The notes below the pieces were generated by a model, which worked only from the letters and a program-made list of their open reading frames with translations, ran no database searches and was not told the DNA's origin. From positions 1 through 39,839 of the IMG/VR virus record IMGVR_UViG_3300031251_000973: a DNA stretch of 39,839 nucleotides. One strand, 5' to 3'. The position numbers and the translations under genes were made by a program. The first letter of the stretch is position 1; each line of letters begins with the position of its first letter. This document shows, piece after piece, positions 2,362 through 39,839 of this stretch. Origin of the DNA: a virus.

Positions 2362-4464
2362 GTGGATGAGTGGGCCTCCGCCGCTGAACTGGCCGGGTTG
2401 AGCCCGACCGCGTCCGAGCTGCGCGAACTGGGGATGCGGGCATGGCCGAAGACTCAGCAGGGCATCAATGCGCGGGCCAAAAAATGGCAATGCGAAGGCC
2501 GTCAGCAAGGCAGTTCACAGGCATGGGAATATCTCCGTTCCAGCCTGCCGGCGCCGGTGCGGAAGGTCATGGCCCGCGCCCTGCTGAAGACCGCTTCCGC
2601 CGTCCCGGCCCCGCTCCCCGCCCTGGCGAAAATCCCCGTCAACACCGCCGATCTCAAGAACTATCAGCGCACGACCATGGAAGCCCGCGCGGCGATCCTG
2701 GCGGAGGTTGACCGGCTGGTCATCACCGCCGGAGTCGGGCGCAGCAATGCCGTCAAAACCCTGGTCGAGATGGCGCGGGATGGCACGCTGGCGCCGGAGC
2801 TGGCGCGGCTGGTGCCGATCGCCAATGCGCGGGGGAATGCCTCGCGGAGCCTCTGCCGCAGTACAGTCTATGGCTGGCTTGCCACCCGATCCCTGGCCGA
2901 TGGCGATACCGGAGCGCTGGCGCCGGTGGCCATCAGGGAAGCGCCGGTCCGGGGATGGACGCGGACCTTCATGGATTGCTACTGCATCCCGCAGAAGCCG
3001 ACCATTGCCGAGGTGCTGGACCGGCGCTGGCCGGAGGGCGTGGAAAAGCCGTCCTATGATCAGGCGCGGCGGTTCGTCAAAAAGCTCGGCACGGTCACCC
3101 GCAACAAGGGGCGGATGGGGCCGCGCGCGCTTCAGGCCTACAAAGCCTATGTGACCAGGGATGTTTCGGATCTGTGGCCGGGCGCCTGCTTCATCGGCGA
3201 TGGGCACACCTTCAAGCGCGAGGTTTCCAATCCGAAGACCGGGCTTCCGTTCAGACCCGAAGTTACCGCCATCCTCGACGTGTTCACGAAGGTGTGGGCC
3301 GGCTGGTCGGTGGCGCTTTCCGAGAACACGATCGCTGTGGCGGATGCGCTCCGTCACGCCATCACCTCCACGACCTGCTGCGCCATTTTCTATTACGACA
3401 ACGGCAAGGGCGCCAATAACAAGAAATGGGATGACGACATCACCGGGATGATGGGGCGGCTTGCCATCACCAAGCTGAATTCGGCGCCATGGACGAGCCA
3501 ATCGCGCGGGATCATCGAGCGGTTCAACGGCTCTGTCCTGCACCGCCTTGCCCGGCAAGCCCCGACCTATGTCGGCCAGCACATGGACAAGGAGGCCCGC
3601 GACCGCGCCTATAAGATCACGCGCAAGCAGATCAAGGAGACAGGATCATCGGCGCTCCTGACCTCCTGGGCGGATTTCATGGCCGAGCTTGAGGCCGAGC
3701 AGCTTCGCTACAACGCCACGCCGCATTCGTCCCACCCGGAAATCATCGATCAAGCCACGGGCAAGCGCCGGCATATGAGCCCGCAAGAGGTTTGGGACAA
3801 GGCCGTAGCGGCGGGCTGGACCGCCGATCCGATTTCCGCAGAGGAAGCGACCGATCTGTTCCGACCGGCGGAAATCCGGACGGTGCTGCGGTGCCAGATC
3901 GAACTCTACAACAATCTCTATTTCCATCCGGCTCTCGAAGAACTGCACAAGGAAAAGGTCTCGGTCGCCTTCGATATCCACGATGCGGCCAAAGTCCAGA
4001 TCCGGCTGCTCGACGGGCGCTTCGTGTGCGAGGCGGTCTTCGAGGGCAACAAGAAGGGCTACTTCCCGAAATCCTATGCCGAACAGGCGGAGGAGAGGCG
4101 CGTCGCGGGACAGGTAAAGCTGCTCGAAGGGCATATCGGGAGGGTCAAGCAGGCGCTCGGCCCGCTGCCGATCGAGCATCTGCCGGAGGTGCCCCTCACC
4201 TTCGATCAACAGCAGGCGGTCGAGGCCGAGTTTGCGCGGCTGGAAGCGCGCGAGGCCGTGGCATCCGCGCCAACGCCCGCAGCCGGTATCCGCCCGAATT
4301 TCCACGACGATGTTTCCTGGGCGCGATGGGTGCTGGAGCATCCGCAAGAGGCGCTCGACCAAGACCGGAACCACCTCAAGCGGAAGCTTCGAGACCGGAT
4401 TTTCATGGAATTACTGGAGATGCAAGGGCTGGACGTTGGTGCGCTCTCAGCCCTTGCAGCTTAA
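2362..4464 (+). CDS. MuA-type DDE transposase (transposase A)
   Basis: A 700-residue transposase that cuts and joins phage ends to target DNA during replicative transposition. Residues 1-65 match the Mu-type N-terminal HTH domain (EWASAAELAGLSPTASELR). The catalytic core shows Asp280 (FIGDGHTF), Asp346 (FYYDNGKG) and Glu386 (RGIIERFNG), with spacing similar to Mu's D269-D336-E392. A C-terminal beta-barrel-like region follows at about 470-550. The length is close to MuA (663). It starts with GTG after AAAGGGG. It acts in the nucleoid as a multimer on the phage ends with the MuB-like ATPase encoded next. The extreme C-terminal helical tail (MELLEMQGLDVGALSALAA) sits where MuA carries its MuB/ClpX-interacting tail. 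Confidence 0.95.
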   Translation: MDEWASAAELAGLSPTASELRELGMRAWPKTQQGINARAKKWQCEGRQQGSSQAWEYLRSSLPAPVRKVMARALLKTASAVPAPLPALAKIPVNTADLKNYQRTTMEARAAILAEVDRLVITAGVGRSNAVKTLVEMARDGTLAPELARLVPIANARGNASRSLCRSTVYGWLATRSLADGDTGALAPVAIREAPVRGWTRTFMDCYCIPQKPTIAEVLDRRWPEGVEKPSYDQARRFVKKLGTVTRNKGRMGPRALQAYKAYVTRDVSDLWPGACFIGDGHTFKREVSNPKTGLPFRPEVTAILDVFTKVWAGWSVALSENTIAVADALRHAITSTTCCAIFYYDNGKGANNKKWDDDITGMMGRLAITKLNSAPWTSQSRGIIERFNGSVLHRLARQAPTYVGQHMDKEARDRAYKITRKQIKETGSSALLTSWADFMAELEAEQLRYNATPHSSHPEIIDQATGKRRHMSPQEVWDKAVAAGWTADPISAEEATDLFRPAEIRTVLRCQIELYNNLYFHPALEELHKEKVSVAFDIHDAAKVQIRLLDGRFVCEAVFEGNKKGYFPKSYAEQAEERRVAGQVKLLEGHIGRVKQALGPLPIEHLPEVPLTFDQQQAVEAEFARLEAREAVASAPTPAAGIRPNFHDDVSWARWVLEHPQEALDQDRNHLKRKLRDRIFMELLEMQGLDVGALSALAA

Positions 4465-5295: not shown

Positions 5296-5910
5296 ATGGC
5301 CGCCGAACCGTTAAGTTCTGGCGCGCCCGACGCGCCGGGGGGCCACCAGACCTCGCTCCTCAACGCCATCCCGCCGGGTGCATGCCTGACGATGGATGAG
5401 CTGGCGGGCGCGTTACCGGATTTGAACCGGCGGCAGTTGAGCAACGCCGCCACCGGGCTGGCCCTGCGCGGCTTGGTCGAGCGGGTGGAGCGCGGCTGTT
5501 TCCGCCTGACCGATGGCGGCGAGACGGCGCAGGGTGCCGGGCTCGTCATCAAGTCCGGCCCGCGCGGCCCAATGCCGCGCAAGCGGGCGACGCGCAACAG
5601 CCTGACCTCGCGCCTGTGGCGGGCGATGCGGCTCAAGCGGAAATTCACGATCCCGGATTTGTTGGAACTGGCGGCGCGCGACGAGAAATATCCGCGCAAC
5701 ATGGCGGAGCGGCTCGTCCGGGCCTTGGCGGATGCGGGTTACCTCCACGGCCTCGGCACGCGGCAGAAGGGCACCAGCCCGACCAGCAACGGCTTCCGGC
5801 GCTGGACGCTGATCCGGGACACCGGCCCCTTGCCGCCGATCCGGCGCGGCGACGGCACGCTCTACGATCCCAATACCGGCGAGACCATTGTTCTTGGCTG
5901 GACCCCATGA
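5296..5910 (+). CDS. Winged-helix-like early protein
   Basis: A 204-residue protein beginning one base after the ATPase stop. It shows two helix-turn-helix-like halves. Residues about 30-75 contain LTMDELAGALPDLNRRQLSN followed by a beta-wing-like GCFRLTDGG. Residues about 100-155 contain FTIPDLLELAARDEKYPRN followed by ADAGYLHGLG. A comparable double winged-helix protein is common directly after the B gene in Mu-like phages, but its exact role is unknown. DNA binding is inferred from the fold pattern and high Arg content. The stop overlaps the next gene (ATGA). Confidence 0.6.
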   Translation: MAAEPLSSGAPDAPGGHQTSLLNAIPPGACLTMDELAGALPDLNRRQLSNAATGLALRGLVERVERGCFRLTDGGETAQGAGLVIKSGPRGPMPRKRATRNSLTSRLWRAMRLKRKFTIPDLLELAARDEKYPRNMAERLVRALADAGYLHGLGTRQKGTSPTSNGFRRWTLIRDTGPLPPIRRGDGTLYDPNTGETIVLGWTP

Positions 5911-6284
5911 GCCGGGCCACGAATTTGGAGCGCGCGCTGGCCGGATGGGGTGCTGATTTGCCCGATTGGGTCGAGGCCCTGGCCCGCGCCTGCGATGCTT
6001 CGAGCCAGACCGAGATCGGTAAACTGCTCCGTTACTCGCGGACGGCGATCTGCCTGTTGGTAAACGGCGAATACCACTGCAATCAGACCGCCATCGAGAC
6101 ACGTATCCGCTTGGTGCTGATGCGCCCGCCCGCGATCCATTGCCCCGGCGAGGGGCGCGAGATTTCAAGCGAGGCCTGCGCGGCCCGCGCCGTATCGCCG
6201 ATGCCGATGTCCAGCCCGCAGGAACTCCGCGCCTGGACCGCCTGCCGCACCTGCCCGCATAGCCGGATCGGAGGCGCCTCATGA
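5907..6284 (+). CDS. HTH protein with Cys4 zinc-binding tail
   Basis: A 125-residue protein. Residues about 25-60 form an HTH (SQTEIGKLLRYSRTAICLLV). The C-terminal part has four spaced cysteines (Cys79, Cys91, Cys113, Cys116; CP, EAC, CRTCPH) that probably bind zinc. This pairing of HTH with a Cys4 module is frequent in early regions of Mu-like prophages and is usually called a transcriptional regulator without experimental proof. The ATG overlaps the previous stop, and the following start overlaps its stop, indicating one tightly coupled operon. Confidence 0.6.
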   Translation: MSRATNLERALAGWGADLPDWVEALARACDASSQTEIGKLLRYSRTAICLLVNGEYHCNQTAIETRIRLVLMRPPAIHCPGEGREISSEACAARAVSPMPMSSPQELRAWTACRTCPHSRIGGAS

Positions 6285-6625
6285 CCGCATGCCCCTTCGG
6301 CCCGGACAGCGTCTATCGCTGGCGGCATGGACATAGCGAGATCGCCGCAAAACCCGCCGGCTATTTCAGGCTTGAAGGGCGGTATCGCGCCCTGCTGATC
6401 GACACGGCGGAGCAGTACTGGACCGCCGATATCGATGCCGCCGGCAAGTTGATGCGCATCGTCGCCGGCCCGGTAACCGCCGAACAGGCGCTGTTCGTGG
6501 CCGAATTGGCGATCACCGGCAGCCCCGGCCACGGCTCCGTATCCGGTGCCATCTCGACACTGGCCATCGGCCTGATGGCCAAAGGGTTCGCCCAACCCGA
6601 ACCCAATTCCAAGGAAAGGAACTGA
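6281..6625 (+). CDS. Hypothetical early protein
   Basis: A 114-residue protein with an N-terminal beta-rich half (SVYRWRHGHSEIAAKPAGYF, then YRALLIDTAEQYWTADID) and an Ala/Gly-rich C-terminal half. No signal peptide or clear membrane segment is seen and no family is recognised. It lies within the overlapping early gene chain; its start overlaps the previous stop. Confidence 0.5.
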   Translation: MTACPFGPDSVYRWRHGHSEIAAKPAGYFRLEGRYRALLIDTAEQYWTADIDAAGKLMRIVAGPVTAEQALFVAELAITGSPGHGSVSGAISTLAIGLMAKGFAQPEPNSKERN

Positions 6626-6629
6626 ACCG

Positions 6630-7658
6630 ATGAACGCCACGCAACAAGTTGCCGTCGCGGCGCTGACCCATCCGGGCGCCCATGAGATCAATGGGGTTCC
6701 GCATTTGCGGGACGCCAAGGGAAGATTGGTTCCGGTCGACAATATCCGCCCGATGGATCTCTTGATCGACGAGCGGGTGCGCCTGATCGCCCTCTATGCC
6801 GAAGACCTCTCGGCGGAGCTGGCGCGGTTCCAGAGCCACGCCTATGCCGACATCGCCGCCCTCGATGCGCTGATCGCCCAGGAATTCGGGATCGAGAGCC
6901 TCCCCGGAGCCAAGAACGCGGGCAATAAGGGCAACAGGACGTTCCTCAGCTTCGATGGGCTGACGATGGTCAAGATCGCCGTCTCCGACCGCATCGTGCT
7001 CGGGCCGGAGCTTCAGGCGGCGAAGGAGGTTCTTGACGCCATCATAAGGCGGCGTGGCGAGGGCGCCGATGCCTTCCTCGTCACCTTGGTCAAGCGGGCC
7101 TTTGCCGTCGATACGGAAGGCCGCGTCGACGTGCAGGCGATCCTGGCCCTGCGCCGGATGGAGGTGGACGACGACGCCTGGCCGAATTTCTGCCGCGCCA
7201 TCGATGCCTCCGTGCGGGTGATCGGCTCCAAGCGCTATCTGCGGATCTACCGGCGGGAGACCCCGGACGGGTCATGGCAGATGATCCCGCTCGACATCGC
7301 ATCGGTCGAGCCCACCCCGGCCGCATTCGCGCGCCGCACCCTGCGCCGGCAAGTCGAGGATTTGACCGCCAAGATCCATCTGGCCCGGAACCTCCTGAAG
7401 CTCGGCCGCATCTATGGCGAGGACGGCGCCATGGCCAGCATGCTGGCGCAGATGGACGAGGCGCGGGAGCTGCTCGGCGATGCCGACACGGATTTCACCA
7501 TGCCCGGCAAGGATCAAGCCACGATGCCGGCCTATGTCCGCGCATGGCTCGCCAGCGTGCCGTCCGAAGTGCTGACCCGGAGCCTGGGCACCTTCGTCGC
7601 GGATGCGATCGCCGGCGCGCTGGCGGAAGCGGCGTCCCTGGTTGGGGAGGGCGTCTGA
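6630..7658 (+). CDS. DUF3164 protein with long C-terminal extension
   Basis: A 342-residue protein. Residues 1 to about 230 match DUF3164, a family conserved in Mu-like phages beside the transposition genes: RDAKGRLVPVDNIRPMDLLI near the start, LPGAKNAGNKGNRTFLSFDG in the middle, and a C-terminal block with RVIGSKRYLRIYRRETPDGS. The usual family length is about 200 residues. Here about 110 extra residues follow (ARRTLRRQVEDLTAKIHLAR then a helical tail), as if a second gene had been fused on. Function is unknown; some databases carry a misleading 'sulfate transporter' label. The start has AAGGAAAGGAAC upstream. Confidence 0.75.
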   Translation: MNATQQVAVAALTHPGAHEINGVPHLRDAKGRLVPVDNIRPMDLLIDERVRLIALYAEDLSAELARFQSHAYADIAALDALIAQEFGIESLPGAKNAGNKGNRTFLSFDGLTMVKIAVSDRIVLGPELQAAKEVLDAIIRRRGEGADAFLVTLVKRAFAVDTEGRVDVQAILALRRMEVDDDAWPNFCRAIDASVRVIGSKRYLRIYRRETPDGSWQMIPLDIASVEPTPAAFARRTLRRQVEDLTAKIHLARNLLKLGRIYGEDGAMASMLAQMDEARELLGDADTDFTMPGKDQATMPAYVRAWLASVPSEVLTRSLGTFVADAIAGALAEAASLVGEGV

Positions 7659-7975
7659 TGCGCCCCGGATTTGTCCTGACAACCCCGGAAGGGGCTACGG
7701 AAGTGGAATTCACGGCCCTCGGCCAGGCGCTCGCCACCATCATCGATCTGGCCGGCATGCCCGATGCGGGGCGGGCTTCCCTTGGGCTCCCGGATCAGCC
7801 CCGGCCCCACACCCGCCTCGACGACCACGTCGAGGACATCCTTGCAACGCACGAGTTCGACAGCGCCGAAGATTATCGAGACCAGCTCTACCGGGTTGGG
7901 GCCTTGGTCCTGAAAGAACTGGTGGCACTCGGTCTCGATCCGACGGCAACGGCGATGACAGGAGCATCGGCATGA
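7658..7975 (+). CDS. Hypothetical protein, part of HDD-like pair
   Basis: A 105-residue protein whose second half (RLDDHVEDILATHEFDS then YRVGALVLKELVALGLDP) resembles the C-terminal half of the next gene product in layout: an Asp-Asp/His motif followed by an Ala/Leu-rich helix and a similar final helix. The pair may be diverged duplicates; this comparison was made by eye only. It starts by TGATG overlap. No named family. Confidence 0.5.
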   Translation: MRPGFVLTTPEGATEVEFTALGQALATIIDLAGMPDAGRASLGLPDQPRPHTRLDDHVEDILATHEFDSAEDYRDQLYRVGALVLKELVALGLDPTATAMTGASA

Positions 7976-8334
7976 GCGGCGCGATCGACATCGAGCCCGG
8001 CGAGGCGCTCTACACCATCGAGGCCACCGAATATCCCGCCGCCGCTCCGGAAGGCGCCGTCGAGGATCTGATGCGGGTGCTCGGCTTTGTAGCCGATGAG
8101 CGCCACGCCCAGGATATCCAGCATGGCGGCCCGAGCCATGACGACACCCACACGCCGGCCGTGTGGGAGGATCTGATCCGCGAGCATGCCTACCGTCTGA
8201 CGGATGGGGATGGACCGAATCAAGACTACCGCGCCCGCTTGATCAAGATCGCAGCCCTTGCCGTGGCGGCGGTGCAGTCCTGGGATCGTCCCCCGGCGGC
8301 GATCCGCCCCACCAACGAGACGGGAGGGGTGTGA
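7972..8334 (+). CDS. Phage protein with HDD-type motif
   Basis: A 120-residue protein. Residues about 45-105 contain RHAQDIQHGG, SHDDTHTPAVWEDL and a Tyr/Ala-rich helix. This matches the pattern 'RxxQ..hGG..HDD.H....L...A..Y' of a small all-helical domain common in phage early genes. It has no established biochemical function. The N-terminus is acidic and unrelated. Overlapping ATGA at the start and TGATG at the end place it in the same polycistron. Confidence 0.55.
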   Translation: MSGAIDIEPGEALYTIEATEYPAAAPEGAVEDLMRVLGFVADERHAQDIQHGGPSHDDTHTPAVWEDLIREHAYRLTDGDGPNQDYRARLIKIAALAVAAVQSWDRPPAAIRPTNETGGV

Positions 8335-8579
8335 TGGCGACCAATGAAACCGTTTCGAAGCCGAGCGAGCTCTATCTTGCGGCCTATGAAGTGATGTGCC
8401 CCCGGTTCGGCGAAGACGCCGCTTTGAATGGGCTTTTCATGACTTTCCTCGCGGCGGCGGCAAGGACCGGCAGGCTGCCGGAAGTGGCGGAACTTCTTCG
8501 GGGAACCCTGGAGAAGATGCCGGTGCTCGAACGTGAAGCCGCCGCCGTGAACGCCGCCTTCCCGATCGGGAGGGCGTGA
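8334..8579 (+). CDS. Small hypothetical early protein
   Basis: An 81-residue, largely helical protein (SELYLAAYEVMCPRFGEDAA, then LAAAARTGRLPEVAELLRGT). Starts and stops by TGATG overlaps with both neighbours. No family recognised. Coding is supported by the tight packing and codon pattern. Confidence 0.5.
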   Translation: MATNETVSKPSELYLAAYEVMCPRFGEDAALNGLFMTFLAAAARTGRLPEVAELLRGTLEKMPVLEREAAAVNAAFPIGRA

Positions 8580-9451
8580 TGGCCGACCTCGACGTTCCCA
8601 CCGCCGTCACGGCTCCCAGGCTCGCCAATTTGGAATTTTCCGAAGACCTCGGCCCCGTGCCGGAATTCCAATGGATCAATGCGACGCTGCTCGATGTCGA
8701 TTTGCATTATCAGCGATCGGCCAGCGAGACCCGCTCGATGGCGGTGATCCGGAAGATTGCCGAGAGCTTCTCCTGGGCGAAATTCGCGCCGATCACCGTA
8801 ACCGCCACGCCCAACGGAAGGTATCTCGTCGTCGATGGACAGCACCGCGCGAAGGCCGCTCTGCTGCACCCGAACGTCGTCCAGATACCGTGCTGGCTGA
8901 TCTCGGCTCAGTCCAGCAAAGATCAGGCAAAGGCATTCATCGGGATCAACCGCGACCGCACAAGCCTGCATGTGTTGCAGATCTACAAGGCCGAACTCGC
9001 GGCTGGCGATCCCGACGCGACCCAGATCCGGAAGATCGCCACCGCTTGCGGCGTGACCATCGCCTTCTGCTCGCCGGTCGAGCTGCACCGGATGCCGCCT
9101 CGGACGACGCAATCCGTCTCGACGCTCAAGAAGCTGCTGCGGGCGCATGGCGAGAAACCGCTCCGGGTGGCGCTGACGGCGCTGGCCGAAGCCTATCCGG
9201 ACACGGGCGGCGATCTGCGCGGGCAGCTGATCGAAGCCGCAACCCTGATCGTGCTGGCGCATGGGCCGCGTCTCGACGCGAAGCGTCTGGCCTCGGTCCT
9301 ATCCGAGCAGACGGGCGAGGAGTGGATCGAGCACGGGCGGCTCCTCAGGAAGGCTTTCGCTGGAAAGGCGGTCCCCGCGCTCATCGAGACGATTATCCGG
9401 AAATACGACAACCGGCTGCCCCCGGACCGGCGTCTCGGAAAGGGTGTGTGA
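8579..9451 (+). CDS. ParB/sulfiredoxin-like nuclease-fold protein
   Basis: A 290-residue protein. Residues about 35-110 form a ParB N-terminal domain: HYQRSASETRSMAVIRKI, then PITVTATPNGRYLVVDGQHR with the signature DGQHR at 86-90. The rest is helical and contains a possible HTH (QIRKIATACGVTIAFCSPVE). Proteins of this type in Mu-like phages are not plasmid partition proteins. ParB-fold members bind CTP or act as nucleases, but which applies here cannot be read from the sequence. The start is the ATG overlapping the previous stop; a GTG one codon upstream is also possible. Confidence 0.75.
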   Translation: MADLDVPTAVTAPRLANLEFSEDLGPVPEFQWINATLLDVDLHYQRSASETRSMAVIRKIAESFSWAKFAPITVTATPNGRYLVVDGQHRAKAALLHPNVVQIPCWLISAQSSKDQAKAFIGINRDRTSLHVLQIYKAELAAGDPDATQIRKIATACGVTIAFCSPVELHRMPPRTTQSVSTLKKLLRAHGEKPLRVALTALAEAYPDTGGDLRGQLIEAATLIVLAHGPRLDAKRLASVLSEQTGEEWIEHGRLLRKAFAGKAVPALIETIIRKYDNRLPPDRRLGKGV

Positions 9452-9452
9452 C

Positions 9453-9731
9453 ATGGCCCGCCGCACCCCATCGCGCCGCCGCCCGCACCGGTTCGAGATG
9501 GACTGGGATTTGGCTTTGACCATCGGCCAGGAGCTTGCCGATCGGGATGCCGGGTTTCTCGCCATCGGGTGGAAACGAGCCCGGCGCGTCCGCGTCACCC
9601 TGACCGCCGCCGCCCTGTTCAACGTCTGCTTCGTCTGGACGCGCGGGGGCCAGGGCGCTCGGGAGAAGCACTGCATCACGATCAAGGGCATCCGCCTGGA
9701 TCAGGACGCAGCCGCGACGGGGGCGACGTGA
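9453..9731 (+). CDS. Small basic hypothetical protein
   Basis: A 92-residue protein with an Arg-rich start (MARRTPSRRRPHRFEMDWDL) and a central beta-like stretch. No family recognised. It lies directly after the ParB-like gene and its stop overlaps the next ATG. Confidence 0.45.
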   Translation: MARRTPSRRRPHRFEMDWDLALTIGQELADRDAGFLAIGWKRARRVRVTLTAAALFNVCFVWTRGGQGAREKHCITIKGIRLDQDAAATGAT

Positions 9732-9931
9732 TGACCGGCAATCCGGTCGCCGTCAACGCAAGCCATGCTCCCACCTGCGGCTGCTGCGACGGGACCGGCC
9801 TCACCGAGGACATCCGAGGAACGGAACGGCCATGCAGCCGCTGCCGAGTGACCGAGTTTTCGGACTGGTATGCGCGGCAAGTCGAAGCGGGTCGGAGAGA
9901 AATCGTCGCCGCCGTGAACCGTGAAGATTGA
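9731..9931 (+). CDS. Small zinc-ribbon protein (CxxC...CxxC)
   Basis: A 66-residue protein with Cys16-x-x-Cys19 followed by GTGL, and Cys35-x-x-Cys38. The CCDGTGL element resembles one DnaJ-type zinc repeat. The C-terminal helix is amphipathic. Probably a zinc-stabilised early accessory protein; partner unknown. Confidence 0.5.
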   Translation: MTGNPVAVNASHAPTCGCCDGTGLTEDIRGTERPCSRCRVTEFSDWYARQVEAGRREIVAAVNRED

Positions 9932-9959
9932 GCCGGGAATATTTGAGGATGAATTGGAC

Positions 9960-10211
9960 ATGACGATCACGAATTTGAAGCCATGCCCGGTCTGCGGACG
10001 GGAGATCCATTTGAATTCCCTCACCTGCCTCGATTGCTGGGCGCTGGTGCCGGAAGCACATCGTAAGGCGCTCGCGGTGATCGCTCTCCCGCGCCCCCGC
10101 CCGAACAGCGGCTCGCAACGCGCCGCTGTTCGGCAACAACACCAGCGCGTCATCGACGCGGCGATCCGCGAGGCGAGCATGGCCAGGACGGCGATGGAGG
10201 ACCGGCGGTAA
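9960..10211 (+). CDS. Small zinc-ribbon protein
   Basis: An 83-residue protein with an N-terminal Cys4 ribbon: Cys9-x-x-Cys12 (CPVCGREIH) and Cys23-x-x-Cys26 (CLDCW). A basic helical tail follows. The ATG at 9960 is preferred over an in-frame GTG at 9921 because TTTGAGGAT lies a few bases before it, and because the earlier start would overlap the previous gene. Its stop overlaps the next ATG. Function unknown. Confidence 0.55.
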   Translation: MTITNLKPCPVCGREIHLNSLTCLDCWALVPEAHRKALAVIALPRPRPNSGSQRAAVRQQHQRVIDAAIREASMARTAMEDRR

Positions 10212-10612
10212 TGGTCGCCTACAGCTTCAAGGCTCGCTTCGCCGAGCCGATCCTCGACGAGACCAAGGGCGGCACGATCCGCGCCGATCGGCGGCGGCAT
10301 GCGCGGCCGGGCGAGGCGCTACAGCTCTATACGGGGATGCGGACCCACCAATGCCGGTTGGTTGCACGGCAAACCTGCCTCGCGGTCGAGCCGATCCGGA
10401 TCGATGTGGCGGCGAATTGGATCGAGGTCGGCGGGACGCAGATCAACGACATCCTCGATCCGCTCGCCCTCGATCTTTTCGCCCGGTTCGATGGCTTCCG
10501 GGATTGGGCGGATATGCAGGGTTTCTGGTGGGACACGTATAGCCAGGACATTTTCTCGGGCTGGCATATCCGCTGGGCGCCGTTCCCTGTCGGGTTGGAG
10601 ATGGGGCGATGA
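10211..10612 (+). CDS. ASCH-domain-like phage protein
   Basis: A 133-residue protein with the features of a phage ASCH/PUA-like family. The start is YSFKARFAEPILDETKGGTI, followed by the basic patch RADRRRHARPGE, then LQLYTGMRTHQCRL. The C-terminus has aromatic residues (GFWWDTYSQDIF). ASCH domains are predicted nucleic-acid-binding beta-barrels; the 'K-x-x-T-I-R-x-x-R' arrangement is typical. The biological role in Mu-like phages is not established. It sits just before the Mor-like regulator and overlaps its start. Confidence 0.7.
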   Translation: MVAYSFKARFAEPILDETKGGTIRADRRRHARPGEALQLYTGMRTHQCRLVARQTCLAVEPIRIDVAANWIEVGGTQINDILDPLALDLFARFDGFRDWADMQGFWWDTYSQDIFSGWHIRWAPFPVGLEMGR

Positions 10613-10998
10613 GCCGGGGTGAGCTGACCTACGACTATCTGGTCGAGCTGATCGGGCGCGAGGCGGCGGAGCGTCTCTCCGAGGTCCGGGGCGGGCGCAG
10701 GATGTACTTGCCGCCGCCGCATCGCCTTGGACCGAATTGTCCGCTCGTGCGGGCGGTCGGAGCGGCGGCGGCGCGGGTGCTGGTCAAGTCGCTCCAGCCG
10801 GGGGAGATGATCTCGGTTCCGATCGGTCCCGGCAAGCGCTCGCGGATCAGGGCCTTGCGGACCGAAGGCCGCAGCATCGACGAGATCGCCGCTGATCTGC
10901 GCTGCACGCGCCGCCACGTCTTCTACGTCCTGGCCGAAGAGCCACCCCCGGCGACCGAGCCGCCGCCGCTGCTTGCCCTGATGGGGGCCGTGCGATGA
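10609..10998 (+). CDS. mor: Mor-family transcription activator
   Basis: A 129-residue protein matching the Mor/C activator family of Mu. An N-terminal dimerisation helix region (YDYLVELIGREAAERLSEV) is followed by the family's beta motif GGRRMYLPPP (residues about 28-37). A C-terminal HTH follows at about 84-112 (RALRTEGRSIDEIAADLRCT then RRHVFYVL). Mor activates the middle promoter of Mu by binding a dyad next to RNA polymerase. The candidate target here is the repeated dyad GGTGAA-N4-TTCACC at 13243 and 20993. The last gene of the early chain before the minus-strand cassette. Only one Mor/C-type gene is visible, so it may do the work of both Mor and C. Confidence 0.8.
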   Translation: MSRGELTYDYLVELIGREAAERLSEVRGGRRMYLPPPHRLGPNCPLVRAVGAAAARVLVKSLQPGEMISVPIGPGKRSRIRALRTEGRSIDEIAADLRCTRRHVFYVLAEEPPPATEPPPLLALMGAVR

Positions 10999-11006
10999 CG
11001 CGCAAA

Positions 11007-11966
11007 TCAGAAGAGCCCAGCCCGGATCAACGTGGCATCGGCGAGCCGATCGTTTATCATTTTCACGTTGATCTTCATGGCTACGGGCTTCTTCTCCCAT
11101 TCGCCGGTTTGGAGAGCCTGTGTCTGGTCCAGGCTCAAAGTGCCTTCGGGCACCTTCACCGTCAGTACCTCATTCGTGTGGATATTGCGGACCTTCAGAC
11201 GAAAGCCGCCCGGCACCTGCCCGGAATCGACGCTGAGAATGATGAATTCGGCATCGAGGCGGGATTCGACGGCTTCGGCGCGAGGGCGCCGGATAATTCG
11301 CTGCGCGGTCTCGCCGTCGATGACCGGGATGTCATCGATTACAAGCTGATCCGCTGGAGCGAGACGCTTGAGCAGGGTCTCCTGAAGCAACTGCATTTGA
11401 AGCATTTGATCGTGAAGGACCGGGGAGAGATCGGCAGCCTTCCTAAGCAACTCATAGCGCCGCGTCTCTTCCCGGCTGAGTTCCAGCTTTTGGTCAATTT
11501 CCTTCTCGTCCAGCATGGCGTTCAGATGGGTCTTCCAGACATAACCGCCAGCGATCAGTGCTGCCATGCCGAGAATGACGATCATGAGTTCCCTGGCACT
11601 CATTTTGCGTACCGCTTGTTGAGCTATGGCGTTGAGGATTGGCGACATTTTGGAAATGAACGTGGTCGAGCGCCCAGCCTGGAAATGTACGACCAGCTCG
11701 GTATATTTACGTTCCTCTTTCGAAAGCCGCTGTTCCGTTCCGTAAGTCAGTCGAGCATAGGCCTTGTCGACGACTTTCTGAAGAGCCAGCAACGCAGGCA
11801 TAATTCTGGTGGGAACGCCGCCATCAAAGCTCAGCCCCCTGATGGTGACCTCGAAATTCGGCCAACCTTGGAATTCGACGGACCAATCGGCTCCGACGCC
11901 ATCTTCCACCACCCTTTGCAGGGCGGCGTAAAGGTCCGCCTCCCCAGCGATCTCAATCATTTCCAT
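11007..11966 (-). CDS. Membrane-anchored protein of unknown function (cargo gene 3)
   Basis: A 319-residue protein on the minus strand. Residues 1-100 form an alpha/beta domain (DLYAALQRVV, EFQGWPNFEVTIRG, then LQKVVDKAYARLTYG). A single membrane segment follows at about 127-144 (LMIVILGMAALIAGGYVW). Residues 150-205 are a charged, coiled-coil-like helix, and the C-terminal domain is beta-rich (FRLKVRNIHTNEVLTVKV). GGGAGGACACGCGACG precedes the ATG. GC content is much lower than around it: two sampled 60-base lines have 28 and 33 G+C, against 48 in a sampled line of the preceding mor gene. It lies between mor and later genes, facing their transcription. Similar N-terminal domains occur, as I recall, in uncharacterised prophage proteins, but no function is established. 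Superinfection exclusion or defence is an inference. Confidence 0.8.
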   Translation of the reverse strand: MEMIEIAGEADLYAALQRVVEDGVGADWSVEFQGWPNFEVTIRGLSFDGGVPTRIMPALLALQKVVDKAYARLTYGTEQRLSKEERKYTELVVHFQAGRSTTFISKMSPILNAIAQQAVRKMSARELMIVILGMAALIAGGYVWKTHLNAMLDEKEIDQKLELSREETRRYELLRKAADLSPVLHDQMLQMQLLQETLLKRLAPADQLVIDDIPVIDGETAQRIIRRPRAEAVESRLDAEFIILSVDSGQVPGGFRLKVRNIHTNEVLTVKVPEGTLSLDQTQALQTGEWEKKPVAMKINVKMINDRLADATLIRAGLF

Positions 11967-12015
11967 CGTCGCGTGTCCTCCCTAAAAGTTGATTGTCGGT
12001 GGAACTACGCGAGTC

Positions 12016-12030
12016 TTGAGGATGTCTCAA
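12016..12030. promoter_or_regulatory. Inverted repeat upstream of minus-strand cargo gene 3
   Basis: TTGAG (12016-12020) and CTCAA (12026-12030) flank five bases. On the minus strand this overlaps a possible promoter: a TTGAGA-like -35 and a TAGTTC-like -10, 17 bases apart, about 30 bases before the ribosome-binding site. It could be the promoter/operator of the cargo gene. Weak matches, position-based inference. Confidence 0.3.
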
Positions 12031-12052
12031 CAATTTTGCGGAGAGCGGCGCC

Positions 12053-12430
12053 ATGACAACCGCCCCCGCGCGCCTCCCCACCCTCGCCGATCTCGACCGT
12101 GACGAGCTGCTGCGGTTTGCGGAGTGCCACGCCTTTGCCTTCCGCGCCCGAGATTTGATCTGGGTGCAATGGGAGGTGGCGTGCCGCCGCCGTCACGCGG
12201 CGTATGAGGACGTGCTGGCCCTTGCCGATGAGCTGATCCGGTTGGCGCGGGCCGTGGATCTTGCCCAAGATGCGGTGCGCGCCAACCCGACGACAGCTAA
12301 ACAGTTTTTTGCGGCCCATGCTGCCTATGAGGAGGTGACGGCACGGGAGGGCAAACTGCGCGCCAAAGCCGATCGCCTGGATCGACGCGCCAATCGGCTC
12401 TATGCGTTGTATCAGAGCCTGCCGCGATGA
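12053..12430 (+). CDS. Helical hypothetical protein before GemA
   Basis: A 125-residue, almost entirely helical protein (DELLRFAECHAFAFRARDLI, then a long charged helix ending RLDRRANRLYALYQSLPR). The C-terminal half looks like a coiled coil rich in Arg and Lys. No named family. Its stop overlaps the GemA start by ATGA, so the two are coupled. Transcription must come from upstream across the minus-strand cargo gene or from a promoter near 11970-12050. Confidence 0.55.
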   Translation: MTTAPARLPTLADLDRDELLRFAECHAFAFRARDLIWVQWEVACRRRHAAYEDVLALADELIRLARAVDLAQDAVRANPTTAKQFFAAHAAYEEVTAREGKLRAKADRLDRRANRLYALYQSLPR

Positions 12431-13164
12431 GCGCCGCTCTCGATCTCCGCACCCGGCAGCTCGCCGCCATCCATGCCGGGAGGAAACAGATCGGCATGGA
12501 GGAGGATGATTACCGGGCGATCGTCTCCCGGATCAGCCGGGGCCGGACGGAGAGTTCCGGGGAGATGACCGACACCGAAAGGGCAAGGCTGCTCGACCAT
12601 CTGAAAACCCTCGGCGCCGGCAAGAAGCCATCCGGCAAATCCACCATGCCCGCCCGCGCGCGGCCACCTGAAAAGCTGGCGCCGCAGGTGGGCAAGCTCC
12701 GGGCGCTGTGGATTTCGCTCTGGCAATTGGGCGTGGTGGATCATCGGGAAGACACGGCGCTGGCCGCGTTCGTGCGGCGCCAGACCGGGCTCGATGCGTG
12801 GTCCTGGAATTCGGCCGAACACCTCCGCGCCGCGATCGAGGCGCTGAAGGAATGGGGCAAGCGGTTCGAGATGAAAGCGCCGGACCGGAAATTCCGGGAT
12901 GCCGTCGCCGCGGCACGTCTGGCGGCGGGGCTTGATGATGGCGGGTCCGCCTTTGAGGAAAAGGTATTGTTGATCCGGGCGCAGTGGAGCCGCCTCGGCG
13001 TGCTGGGCGCTGTGGCCCAGGCGGATACGCTGGGCGCTTGGCTCCAGGCAAGCCACGGGGTGACGGCGGGGCATTTCTTGAGCGGCGAGCAGGCCGATGC
13101 GGCGATCGCCGATCTCGGCACCCAAATCCGCCGAACGAGGAAAAGCTCGGATCAAGGCGGGTGA
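12427..13164 (+). CDS. gemA: GemA / Mu gp16-like regulatory protein
   Basis: A 245-residue protein. The N-terminus matches the GemA/gp16 (DUF1018) family: LAAIHAGRKQIGMEEDDYRA, then ISRGRTESSGEMTDTERARL and a short DHLKTLG. The C-terminal part continues the family pattern with VGKLRALWISLWQLGVVDHR and a conserved-looking FVRRQTGLDAWSW. In Mu, GemA influences host gene expression and DNA topology; the mechanism is not settled. It is longer than Mu GemA because of an additional ~70-residue helical tail. This is the last gene before the first late-type control region at 13165-13295. Confidence 0.8.
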   Translation: MSAALDLRTRQLAAIHAGRKQIGMEEDDYRAIVSRISRGRTESSGEMTDTERARLLDHLKTLGAGKKPSGKSTMPARARPPEKLAPQVGKLRALWISLWQLGVVDHREDTALAAFVRRQTGLDAWSWNSAEHLRAAIEALKEWGKRFEMKAPDRKFRDAVAAARLAAGLDDGGSAFEEKVLLIRAQWSRLGVLGAVAQADTLGAWLQASHGVTAGHFLSGEQADAAIADLGTQIRRTRKSSDQGG

Positions 13165-15467: not shown

Positions 15468-16016
15468 ATGGCGCGCCCGTCCAAAATCGACCGCCTGCCG
15501 CAAGAGGTCCGCGAAAAGATCGGCGAGTTGCGCACGGCAGGGCACACGATCGATGAGATCATGGCGCATCTCAAGAAGCTCGATCTTCCGGATGGCAGCC
15601 TGCCGGCGCGATCGGGTCTCGGCAGCCACATTCTGGAACTCGACAAGATGCTTCAGGAGGCGCTTGAAGCCCGCGCCTTTGCCGAGGCGATGAAAAAGCG
15701 GGTGGGCGAAGAGCCTGAAAGCCGCCTCGGCGCTCTGAACGCCGAGTTCCTGCAGATCGCCATCTTCAAGCTGAACCGGGCCGTGGCGACGGGACAAGCC
15801 GAGAATTTCGATGCGAAGGAAATTCTGGCGATGGCGCGCGCGCATGAGAGCTTGGAGCGCGCCATCAAGACAAATGCCGAGACAACCCTGAAGCTGCGCC
15901 GGGAAGCCAAGGCGGAATCAGCTGAGGCCGCCACTGCGGTGGCGAAGAGGGCCGGTCTTTCGAAAGCTATGATCGACGATATCGTCGGCTCCATCATCGG
16001 CAAGGCCGCCGCATGA
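15468..16016 (+). CDS. Terminase small subunit (Mu gp27-like, DUF3486)
   Basis: A 182-residue protein matching DUF3486 / Mu gp27. It begins MARPSKIDRLPQEVREKIGE, a signature start of the family, followed by an HTH (LRTAGHTIDEIMAHLKKLD) and a long helical oligomerisation region. The small terminase recognises phage DNA ends and recruits the large subunit for headful packaging. Its stop overlaps the large-subunit start. Normal length for the family. Confidence 0.85.
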   Translation: MARPSKIDRLPQEVREKIGELRTAGHTIDEIMAHLKKLDLPDGSLPARSGLGSHILELDKMLQEALEARAFAEAMKKRVGEEPESRLGALNAEFLQIAIFKLNRAVATGQAENFDAKEILAMARAHESLERAIKTNAETTLKLRREAKAESAEAATAVAKRAGLSKAMIDDIVGSIIGKAAA

Positions 16017-17548
16017 CCCCATCAATACCCGGAGCCGGAGCCTTCCTGGCGTATCAGGAGGATTTGAGGTCCACGGTCGCAGCCAATGCGGTGACCGTGG
16101 TCGAGAAGTCCCGGCGCACCGGCTATTCCTGGGCAGCCGCCTTCATCGCCATGCTGACGGCGGCGGCGGATCGGGCGGCGGGTGGCCAGGACGTGTTCTA
16201 TATGGGCTACAATTTGGAGATGGCCCGCGAGTTCATCGACTATGTCGGTGAGTTCGGCAAGAACCTGGCGCCGATCGCCTCGGAGTTCCTGTTCCCCGAT
16301 CCGGACCACCCCGACCGGGATATCATGGCCTTCCGCGTGACCTTCGCCAGCGGTTTCAAGGTCGTGGCACTGCCTTCCGTTCCGCGCGCCCTGCGCGGCA
16401 TGCAGGGGCTGGTCATCATCGACGAGGCGGCATTCCACGACGAACTCAATGAACTGCTGAAGGCCGCCTTCGCCCTGTTGATCTGGGGCGGCAAGGTGTT
16501 GGTGATCTCCACCCATAACGGCGACACCAACCCCTTCGCCGAGCTGGTCAACGACATCCGGGCCGGGCGCAAGCCCTATGCGCTTTTGCGCTGCACCTTC
16601 GACGATGCGCTTAGCGACGGGCTCTACCGGCGCATCTGCTATGTCAAGGATATGCTTTGGTCGGCGGCAGCCGAGGCCCAATGGCGCCAGGAGATCATCA
16701 ATCTCTATGGCAGCGGCGCCGACGAGGAATTGTTCGTCATCCCCAGCGCCAGCGGCGGCAGCTTCCTGTCGCTGGCGATCCTCGAACAATGCATGGATAA
16801 AGCCATCCCGGTGCTGCGCTGGGAGGCGCCCGCCGGCTTCGCCGAACTGCCCGACCACATCCGCGAGGCGGAGGGGCTGGATTGGTGCGAGGGCCAGCTG
16901 GCGCCGGTGCTCGCCGGACTGGACCCACGGGCCCGGAGCGTGTTCGGCGAGGATTTCGGGCGCAGCGGCGATTTGACGGTGCTGTGGCCGCTGCTGATCG
17001 GCAAGGATTTGGTGCGGCGGACGCCGTTCCTGATCGAGTTGCGCAACATGCCGTTCCGGCAACAGGAACAGGTGCTGATCTATATGGCCGACCGCCTGCC
17101 CAACCTCCAGGCCGGGGCGCTCGATGCGCGCGGCAACGGGCAGTATTTGGCCGAGCGGGCCATGCAGAAATATGGCGCTCGGCGCATCGCCCAGGTGATG
17201 ATCTCGGTCGAGTGGTATCGGGAAAACATGCCGCCCTATAAGGCGGCGTTTGAAGACCGCACCATCACGGCCCCCCGCGATGCCGATGTGCTGGCCGATC
17301 ACCGCGCCCTGGTGATGGATAAGGGCGTGGCCCGAATCCCCGATCGGTCCAATGACCGGGACGGTAAGCAACGCCATGGCGACAGCGCCATCGCCGGCGC
17401 CATGGCCTACGCCGCCAGCCGCATGCCGGTGGTCGAGTATGGCTATGAGAGCGGTACCGGGGAGAGGAGCCGCGATCCGTCCCGGCCACCCGAGGATGAT
17501 GATGACGACAAAGGCGGCGGTTTGCGATTTGGAGCAGGAGCCTGGTAA
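16013..17548 (+). CDS. Terminase large subunit (Mu gp28-like)
   Basis: A 511-residue packaging ATPase-nuclease. An atypical Walker A lies at about 31-39 (EKSRRTGYS), as in other gp28 proteins. Walker B is at 132-138 (LVIIDEA, Asp137-Glu138). The coupling motif region is VISTHNGDTNPF. The RNase H-like nuclease shows acidic residues in GEDFGRSGDL (about Asp314), ALDARGNG and RHGDSAIAGAMAYA. It pumps DNA into the prohead and cuts the headful. The C-terminal ~30 residues are an acidic, Gly-rich tail (PPEDDDDDKGG), possibly for prohead docking. Full length, no lesion seen. Confidence 0.95.
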   Translation: MTPSIPGAGAFLAYQEDLRSTVAANAVTVVEKSRRTGYSWAAAFIAMLTAAADRAAGGQDVFYMGYNLEMAREFIDYVGEFGKNLAPIASEFLFPDPDHPDRDIMAFRVTFASGFKVVALPSVPRALRGMQGLVIIDEAAFHDELNELLKAAFALLIWGGKVLVISTHNGDTNPFAELVNDIRAGRKPYALLRCTFDDALSDGLYRRICYVKDMLWSAAAEAQWRQEIINLYGSGADEELFVIPSASGGSFLSLAILEQCMDKAIPVLRWEAPAGFAELPDHIREAEGLDWCEGQLAPVLAGLDPRARSVFGEDFGRSGDLTVLWPLLIGKDLVRRTPFLIELRNMPFRQQEQVLIYMADRLPNLQAGALDARGNGQYLAERAMQKYGARRIAQVMISVEWYRENMPPYKAAFEDRTITAPRDADVLADHRALVMDKGVARIPDRSNDRDGKQRHGDSAIAGAMAYAASRMPVVEYGYESGTGERSRDPSRPPEDDDDDKGGGLRFGAGAW

Positions 17549-38862: not shown

Positions 38863-39029
38863 AGGGGATTTTAGATACCCCTGCCGGTCGAGGCCGGCGG
38901 GGCCGGGGCGCTGGCACGCCCCGAACCGCGAGAACCCCCTCGCACGATCCGACCGTCCGTCCGGTTTCGGCCGTCCGGACCGTTCCGCCACCCCACGCGG
39001 GGCGGAACAAATATGGAACAAACACCACC
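38863..39029. other. 167-base gap with hairpins before the methylase
   Basis: Non-coding. It contains GC-rich inverted stretches near 38880-38910, three copies of CCGTCCG between 38953 and 38978, and a clean stem at 38982-39008. No consensus promoter is obvious. It probably ends the fibre transcript and controls the methylase. Confidence 0.5.
38982..39008. promoter_or_regulatory. Hairpin upstream of the methylase
   Basis: GTTCCGCC (38982-38989) pairs perfectly with GGCGGAAC (39001-39008) around an 11-base loop. It sits 21 bases before the methylase ATG. It may be a terminator lacking a T tract, an operator, or a translational control structure. Mu controls mom both by methylation and by translation, so control here is a fair guess. 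Confidence 0.45.
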
Positions 39030-39839
39030 ATGGAGTCGAGTCAATCCAACATGCCGCGCCATCCCGTCAGCCCGGTCGCTCCGTATTTCGGCGGCAAACG
39101 GCTGCTCGCAAAAAGGCTGATCGAGCGGATCAACACCATCCCCCATGAACTCTATGCAGAACCGTTCGTGGGGATGGGCGGTGTCTTCTTAAGGCGCGAT
39201 GTGCCCGCAAAAATTGAGGTGATCAACGATCTCTCCCGTGACGTGGCGACGCTTTTTCGTATCTTGCAGCGTCACTTCCAGGCCTTCGCCGATGTTCTGA
39301 AATGGCAGGTCACCAGCCGTGCCGAATTCGAACGCCTGATTGCCGTCGATCCGGACACGCTCACGGATTTGGAACGGGCGGCCCGATTCATTTATCTGCA
39401 ACGGACCAGCTATGGTGGGAAGATCACGGGCCGCAGCTTCGGTGTCAGCCGCACCAATCCGGCCCGGTTCAATGTGACGAAGTTGATCCCGCTCCTCGAA
39501 GACGTACATGAGCGGGTATCCGGTGTCGTGATCGAGTGTCTTCCCTACGGGAGTTTCATCGAACGCTATGACCGTCCTGGTGCCTTGTTCTATCTCGACC
39601 CGCCCTACTGGGGCTGCGAGGGGGAATATGGAAAACTCCTCTTCAGCCGTGACGAATTCGCTCGGCTGAGTGAGCGGCTATCCAAAATCAAGGGCCGGTT
39701 CGTCCTGTCGGTAAACGACGTTCCCGAACTCCGCGCGATCTTCGCGGGCTTCACCATCGAGACCGTTCCAACGACCTACTCGGTCCGTGGTAACGGACAC
39801 ACGAAGAAGGTCTCAGAACTGGTCATCTCTAACGGGTAA
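39030..39839 (+). CDS. DNA adenine-N6 methyltransferase (Dam-type)
   Basis: A 269-residue D12-class adenine methyltransferase. Seen: the N-terminal YFGGKRLLAKRL, motif I EPFVGMGGVFL (44-54), and the catalytic motif DPPY at 190-193 (YLDPPYWG). It transfers a methyl group from S-adenosylmethionine to adenine. The target base sequence cannot be read from the protein. It is the last gene, at the right-end position where Mu has the com-mom DNA-modification genes, and could protect phage DNA from host restriction. The first ATG is at 39030; ATG at 39051 (MPRHPVSP) is a possible alternative. Confidence 0.9.
   Translation: MESSQSNMPRHPVSPVAPYFGGKRLLAKRLIERINTIPHELYAEPFVGMGGVFLRRDVPAKIEVINDLSRDVATLFRILQRHFQAFADVLKWQVTSRAEFERLIAVDPDTLTDLERAARFIYLQRTSYGGKITGRSFGVSRTNPARFNVTKLIPLLEDVHERVSGVVIECLPYGSFIERYDRPGALFYLDPPYWGCEGEYGKLLFSRDEFARLSERLSKIKGRFVLSVNDVPELRAIFAGFTIETVPTTYSVRGNGHTKKVSELVISNG

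Follow-up and report, generated by a model that had tools for sequence, protein, structure and literature searches.

The window analyzed here is the whole 39,839-base record of an IMG/VR virus, and a Mu-type transposase marks it as a transposable (Mu-like) phage. A head maturation protease and a major head protein are encoded farther right in the record. The gene under study lies antisense between a mor-like gene and a 125-amino-acid (aa) ORF that precedes a gemA-like gene. The features of this region are as follows.

2362 to 4464, plus strand: Mu-type transposase (phrog_310, E = 1.8e-133)
8576 to 9451: ParB-like protein
10609 to 10998, plus strand: mor-like late transcription activator, left neighbor of the cargo gene (phrog_836, E = 2.9e-15)
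10995 to 10999, plus strand: ATGAC at the mor stop, possible left edge of an inserted segment (from sequence)
11007 to 11966, minus strand: coding sequence of 319 aa, PHROG 6191 family protein, accessory cargo gene (ORF and translation, PHROG 6191 match, codon score)
11977 to 11983, minus strand: ribosome-binding-like AGGGAGG, 10 bases before the ATG of the 319-aa gene
12053 to 12057, plus strand: ATGAC at the start of the 125-aa ORF, possible right edge of an inserted segment (from sequence)
12053 to 12430, plus strand: 125-aa ORF without a family match, right neighbor of the cargo gene
12427 to 13164, plus strand: gemA-like gene (phrog_286, E = 1.6e-38; also matches annotated GemA proteins)

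The ORF listing and translation gave minus-strand limits of exactly 11007 and 11966, an ATG start, and a product of 319 aa. A profile search matched this product to PHROG 6191 (E = 1.2e-56), with residues 2 to 316 aligned on profile columns 6 to 331 of 338. On the opposing plus strand, a 353-aa ORF (10995 to 12056) opens at the ATGA common to the mor stop and closes at the ATGA common to the start of the 125-aa ORF. These overlaps link it to both neighbors and would suit a genuine gene, in which case the minus-strand ORF would be spurious. However, no family matches the plus ORF, its codon score is noncoding (-0.03, versus 0.26 for the minus ORF; the score was trained on ten genes of the window), and homologs are full length in the minus frame. 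Because of the higher codon score and the full-length homologs, the minus strand is the coding strand, and the plus ORF is refuted in practice as a gene. This confirms the earlier note, which had described a 319-residue gene running backwards beside mor. Its statement that the gene repeats the geometry of two other cargo genes, which it did not name, found no backing: among the minus-strand ORFs of the window, only a weak 111-aa ORF (7888 to 8223) otherwise passes the coding test. No clear promoter was found upstream of the window gene. Elsewhere in the window, a 335-aa ORF (799 to 1806) is regulator-like toward its C terminus (phrog_2345), whereas its N-terminal part matched nothing; its codon score is weak, and its start may be wrong.

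Without the intervening segment, mor and the 125-aa ORF would share an ATGA overlap, as some neighbors in the operon do. The simplest reading of the sequence is that the two formerly overlapped in this way and that the cargo was inserted between them. No homologous empty site was found in relatives of the window phage, because those in which both genes were seen have gemA ahead of mor; the order within 10609 to 13164 of the window, mor before gemA, is the opposite of that in related transposable phages that have both. The relatives (n = 80) were collected with the protein at 16013 to 17548, a terminase by position and by its neighbors in related phages; GemA and transposase patterns retrieved none. 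The family gene was present in 1 of the 80, a lower bound since many of them are fragments. In this relative (L105), which is 59% identical to the window phage in the terminase, the gene lies about 3.2 kb after the terminase gene and is followed by a strong terminator-like hairpin. mor was visible in 14 relatives, and the family gene adjoined it in none of them.

The GC content of the gene is 0.560, compared with 0.653 for the whole record and 0.708 for mor, and the lowest-GC 960-bp window of the record (0.557, starting at 11041; mean of all such windows, 0.654; standard deviation, 0.025) lies almost wholly within it. The gene is indeed well below its surroundings in GC, as had been noticed earlier. 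Further low-GC 500-bp stretches occur in the record (e.g., 0.574 at 39001 to 39500), so that low GC by itself is not unique to the gene. Across 23 loci, the window included, the family gene was below the GC of its locus in every case, by 2.5 to 17.6 points, and its GC content followed that of the locus (r = 0.94). Such tracking with a standing deficit would not be expected in a newly imported gene. Low GC is therefore a standing offset of the family; it is weak evidence for recent foreign origin and says little about the time of arrival, and we do not take it as proof of recent import.

PHROG 6191 is annotated as of unknown function and includes mEp33204 of coliphage mEp332. Full-length or near-full-length matches were found in Moraxella phage Mcat17, Pasteurella phage Pmp14, coliphages mEp332, phi458, and PhiR12, Escherichia coli prophages, a low-GC viral contig (L056), and chromosomal genes; more than 20 distinct members were examined. 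The window protein resembles PHROG 6191 proteins such as mEp33204 in its full-length match and similar length and differs in being encoded on a transposable phage, antisense beside mor. In a profile comparison, members of the window type and of the mEp332 type aligned over 317 columns with 99.95% probability. Identity to the window protein was 15 to 30% for most members and 49 to 51% for the nearest (L105 and L065). The latter comes from a genome of the class searched around Fuscovulum blasticum, and its family gene adjoins ORFs reading as EF-Tu, SecE, NusG, and RplK. The family is infrequent in the genomes surveyed. Within that class, 4 of 385 genomes carried the family gene, the seed genome included. 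One query found two subgroups of the family in 95 of 5,426 complete E. coli genomes, and the mEp332 type was found in 22 complete E. coli genomes.

Neither Pfam nor NCBIfam contained a match to the window protein, and no defense-protein model of PADLOC-DB 2.0 matched it or any member of our family sets A2 and A8. Weak Pfam matches of other family members (best E = 0.0022, at most two members) look like chance, and a search of solved structures by sequence returned nothing convincing. No match to a structural or housekeeping family was found. Our literature search found no paper on any PHROG 6191 family member and no antiphage test of one; the phi458 paper mentions neither Orf11 nor superinfection nor immunity. 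The family is unnamed, undescribed, and fairly widespread; as single-gene cargo, it occurs in dormant phages of many unrelated kinds and, in a few cases, in bacterial chromosomes.

An AlphaFold2 model of the window protein, built from 14 sequences (mean pLDDT, 82.8; pTM, 0.62), bore out the architecture that had been proposed for it, namely, an alpha/beta N-terminal domain, one hydrophobic helix, a coiled coil, and a C-terminal beta domain. The parts correspond to the following stretches of the minus strand.

11601 to 11966, minus strand: N-terminal alpha/beta domain, residues 1 to 122, no known-fold match found (AlphaFold2 models; best VIA Z, 3.6)
11532 to 11597, minus strand: hydrophobic helix, residues 124 to 145, putative single membrane anchor (hydropathy in 24 family members)
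11361 to 11474, minus strand: coiled-coil helices, residues 165 to 202, with the family motif SxxET.R (model and alignment)
11010 to 11276, minus strand: predicted C-terminal OB-fold domain, residues 231 to 319 (VIA)

The earlier note had proposed profile and structure searches with the two soluble domains. By VIA, residues 231 to 319 resembled OB folds, with alignments to many OB domains (SilF, Z = 9.4, root mean square deviation of 2.2 to 2.8 over 73 to 74 residues; RecO, Z = 8.3; Rim1, Z = 8.1), and Foldseek alone returned nothing for this domain at an E value of 0.001 or below. The N-terminal domain modeled alone (mean pLDDT, 78.9) retrieved nothing above Z = 3.6 and may nevertheless have a known fold. 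Against a viral structure library, the whole model matched a DUF6575 protein and a protein of Leptospira phage LE1 (E = 3e-5 to 1e-4), with TM-scores below 0.4. The best 19-residue mean Kyte-Doolittle value of the hydrophobic helix ranged from 1.1 to 2.5 among 24 family members, which is modest, and the helix is likely but not certain to be a membrane anchor. Lysine and arginine residues flanking it averaged 1.7 on the N-terminal side and 3.7 on the C-terminal side. This bias favors a cytoplasmic OB domain, with an N-terminal domain that would then lie outside without a signal peptide, and the excess on the C-terminal side does not fit the simplest topology, in which the N terminus is inside. 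The OB domain has a charge of -1 and a pI of 5.8 in the window protein, and that of most members is either acidic or close to neutral; its charge therefore lends no support to binding of DNA or other nucleic acids. The protein is probably not an enzyme, since the most conserved residues of the family (Q63, Y70, A71, G98, S100, and M122) do not resemble a catalytic set.

The survey of prophages called for by the earlier note found the gene at variable positions. Many members lie behind repressors, in Pseudomonas and Moraxella phages as well as lambdoid phages. In mEp332, the annotated order is pRM, cI, family gene, and terminator Timm, which places the gene on the pRM transcript. The gene also lies behind the repressor in phi458 and PhiR12, behind a CI/LexA-type repressor in two E. 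coli loci (L006 and L007), directly behind S24-type repressors in four loci (L002, L010, L056, and L059), and two genes past one in L061. In L061, an Acinetobacter prophage, the repressor is followed (5450 to 10163) by a mixed cargo cluster that consists of an HSDR_N protein (type I restriction-like), a small ORF, the family gene, and a GAF-GGDEF protein. Of two Mu-like phages, one (L009) has the gene directly after an S24 peptidase ORF; in the other (L050), about 1.3 kb separates it from a preceding HTH repressor region, which is weakly supported. Elsewhere, the gene runs antisense in the interval from antiterminator Q to the lysis side (L008, an arrangement shared by at least 74 E. coli genomes, and likewise L020 and L052) or antisense adjoining endolysin and tail genes (L016). 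In three loci, it is on the same strand as the late genes: ahead of the tape measure gene (L012), between baseplate hub and wedge genes (L054), and flanked by tail-like genes (L168, a phage that also encodes a Mu-type transposase). It stands alone in chromosomal stretches of L071 and L073 and probably also in L072, beside a transposase-like ORF.

No partner gene was constant across the loci examined. Variable position in related and unrelated phages, outside the core gene order, is what distinguishes a prophage moron, and the family gene is such accessory cargo, sited where expression in the lysogen is suited. Its positions imply transcription in the lysogen, which would start either at the repressor promoter or at one belonging to the gene itself. 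The interpretation in the earlier note is partly supported: the gene is mobile, backwards cargo of an undescribed family, and the homologs occupy sites used by lysogenic-conversion and exclusion genes. The sensor-effector behavior suggested there is putative, low GC is weak evidence of recent foreign origin, and the two companion cargo genes were not found.

The slot between a small ORF and antiterminator Q in E. coli prophages is itself a cargo slot. In sibling prophages (L162, L163, L165, and L166), it holds other, exchangeable cargo on the strand opposite the lytic genes, and in one sibling it holds a same-strand ORF instead. The alternative cargo, all opposite the lytic genes, was as follows.

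NYN-domain protein WP_032252670
DUF6731 set of three ORFs
Two-gene unit WP_000868396/WP_001131905
Porin WP_032192726

Phage PA-2 carries a porin gene near its lysis genes that is known to serve lysogenic conversion. Both the NYN protein and the two-gene unit are additional candidate exclusion systems.

We compared the window protein with known exclusion systems. PdpSau of Staphylococcus aureus prophages and AbiP of Lactococcus are abortive-infection proteins with a membrane helix and an OB fold (PMC10127798), a combination that is predicted for the window protein as well, and PdpSau, like the members of this family, is encoded by a single prophage accessory gene (PMC10127798). The domain order differs, with the PdpSau helix at residues 5 to 27 and that of the window protein preceded by a 120-residue domain, and the C terminus of PdpSau is positively charged, whereas the OB domain of the window protein is near neutral. 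Homology to PdpSau was rejected (hhalign probability, 0.1%). The rex position behind cI, that of rexAB in lambda, is taken by many family members, although the window gene itself lies beside mor. For the PHROG 6191 family, we propose membrane-linked exclusion, as for lambda RexAB and RexABpp of Pseudomonas putida. RexAB consists of two genes and the family of one, and no RexB-like membrane partner was found next to the gene either at mEp332 (cI, the gene, and Timm only) or in the window (mor and the 125-aa ORF). A comparison with lambda RexA gave no homology (hhalign probability, 0.1%; 14 columns). SieB, an exclusion protein of lambdoid immunity regions, is present in mEp332 together with the family gene and likewise showed no homology (hhalign probability, 0.2%). 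Fc02 resembles the window phage in being of the transposable type and in having exclusion activity, which arises from overlapping opposite-strand genes in the regulatory region (PMC9936078); its proteins differ from the window protein in being small and encoded beside the repressor. The likeness to PdpSau and AbiP (helix and OB fold) and to Rex (position) is one of presumed function only.

Taken together, we favor, with a probability of roughly 0.6, the reading that the gene is a self-contained moron expressed by the dormant phage and that its product would be a membrane-anchored exclusion or abortive-infection protein guarding the lysogen against other phages. The gene is intact and belongs to a coherent family, and its position shifts among unrelated prophages, often behind the repressor or antisense to lytic operons. 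The prophage would express the gene in the lysogen, and the protein would oligomerize in the inner membrane through its coiled coil. An infection event, either the arrival of DNA or the appearance of an early phage protein, might be sensed by one of the soluble domains. In response, the complex might arrest phage development at the membrane, whether by stopping the entry or replication of DNA or by disturbing the membrane itself. Within this reading, a block to entry and abortive infection are about equally likely. Several points weigh against it: the members within tail operons could be expressed late; the searches described above returned no antiphage test, no PADLOC match, no profile link to RexA, SieB, or PdpSau, and no clear promoter for the window gene; and the charge of the OB domain, the modest helix, and the charges flanking that helix count against it as well. 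A more specific form, to which we give slightly less than even odds, is that the family constitutes an unnamed and widespread one-gene prophage exclusion system made up of an N-terminal recognition domain of new fold, an anchor, a coiled coil, and an OB fold. It would be common to lambdoid coliphages, transposable phages, and lone alphaproteobacterial loci and would fill the rex position in many phages that lack rexAB there. If true, this would give a function to a phage family now labeled "unknown" and explain the content of the rexAB-position slot in a number of lambdoid and transposable prophages. The coliphage members (that of mEp332 and the E. coli Q-slot gene, WP_000357056) make the exclusion idea testable at once in standard laboratory strains.

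The strongest competitor, although a distinctly less probable one, is another form of lysogenic conversion, in which the prophage-expressed gene would alter the host envelope, stress tolerance, or competition and would not exclude phages. The porin in the same E. coli slot, the lone chromosomal copies, which suit any host-benefit gene, and the lack of an antiphage test in the literature searched all fit such a role. Repeated use of the site directly behind the repressor, where lambda has rexAB, and the occurrence of a single gene without pathway partners argue against it.

A phage-internal regulator that stabilizes lysogeny or tunes induction is improbable. The model for it would be Hex of phage 434, which has been reported to have such an effect from the pRM transcript (PMC3564112), and mEp332 and phages like it are expected to cotranscribe the gene with cI. 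However, the family also has members at a distance from the repressor (antisense in the early, lysis, or late region), in phages whose repressors are unrelated, and outside phages. Slightly less probable still is a selfish or passenger gene that serves neither phage nor host. A few copies appear truncated or split (L051 and L058), and that of L168 is divided at a domain border; nevertheless, intact full-length frames at 26 to 50% identity across proteobacterial classes point to long-term constraint at the protein level. A late-phase or virion-related role, such as in lysis or tail assembly, would account for the same-strand members within tail operons and is very unlikely given the sporadic occurrence of the gene among the phage relatives, the many members behind cI or antisense to late genes, and the absence of a virion family match.

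In L168, a second transposable phage, the family gene (5995 to 6969) reads as two ORFs in the same frame, and the break falls exactly where the N-terminal domain gives way to the membrane helix; the split is due to a nonsense change or represents a natural form with two proteins. The product of another gene of this phage (11165 to 11998) is 63% identical to that encoded at the right end of the window (39072 to 39833), which, judged from its first residues, is likely a DNA methyltransferase.
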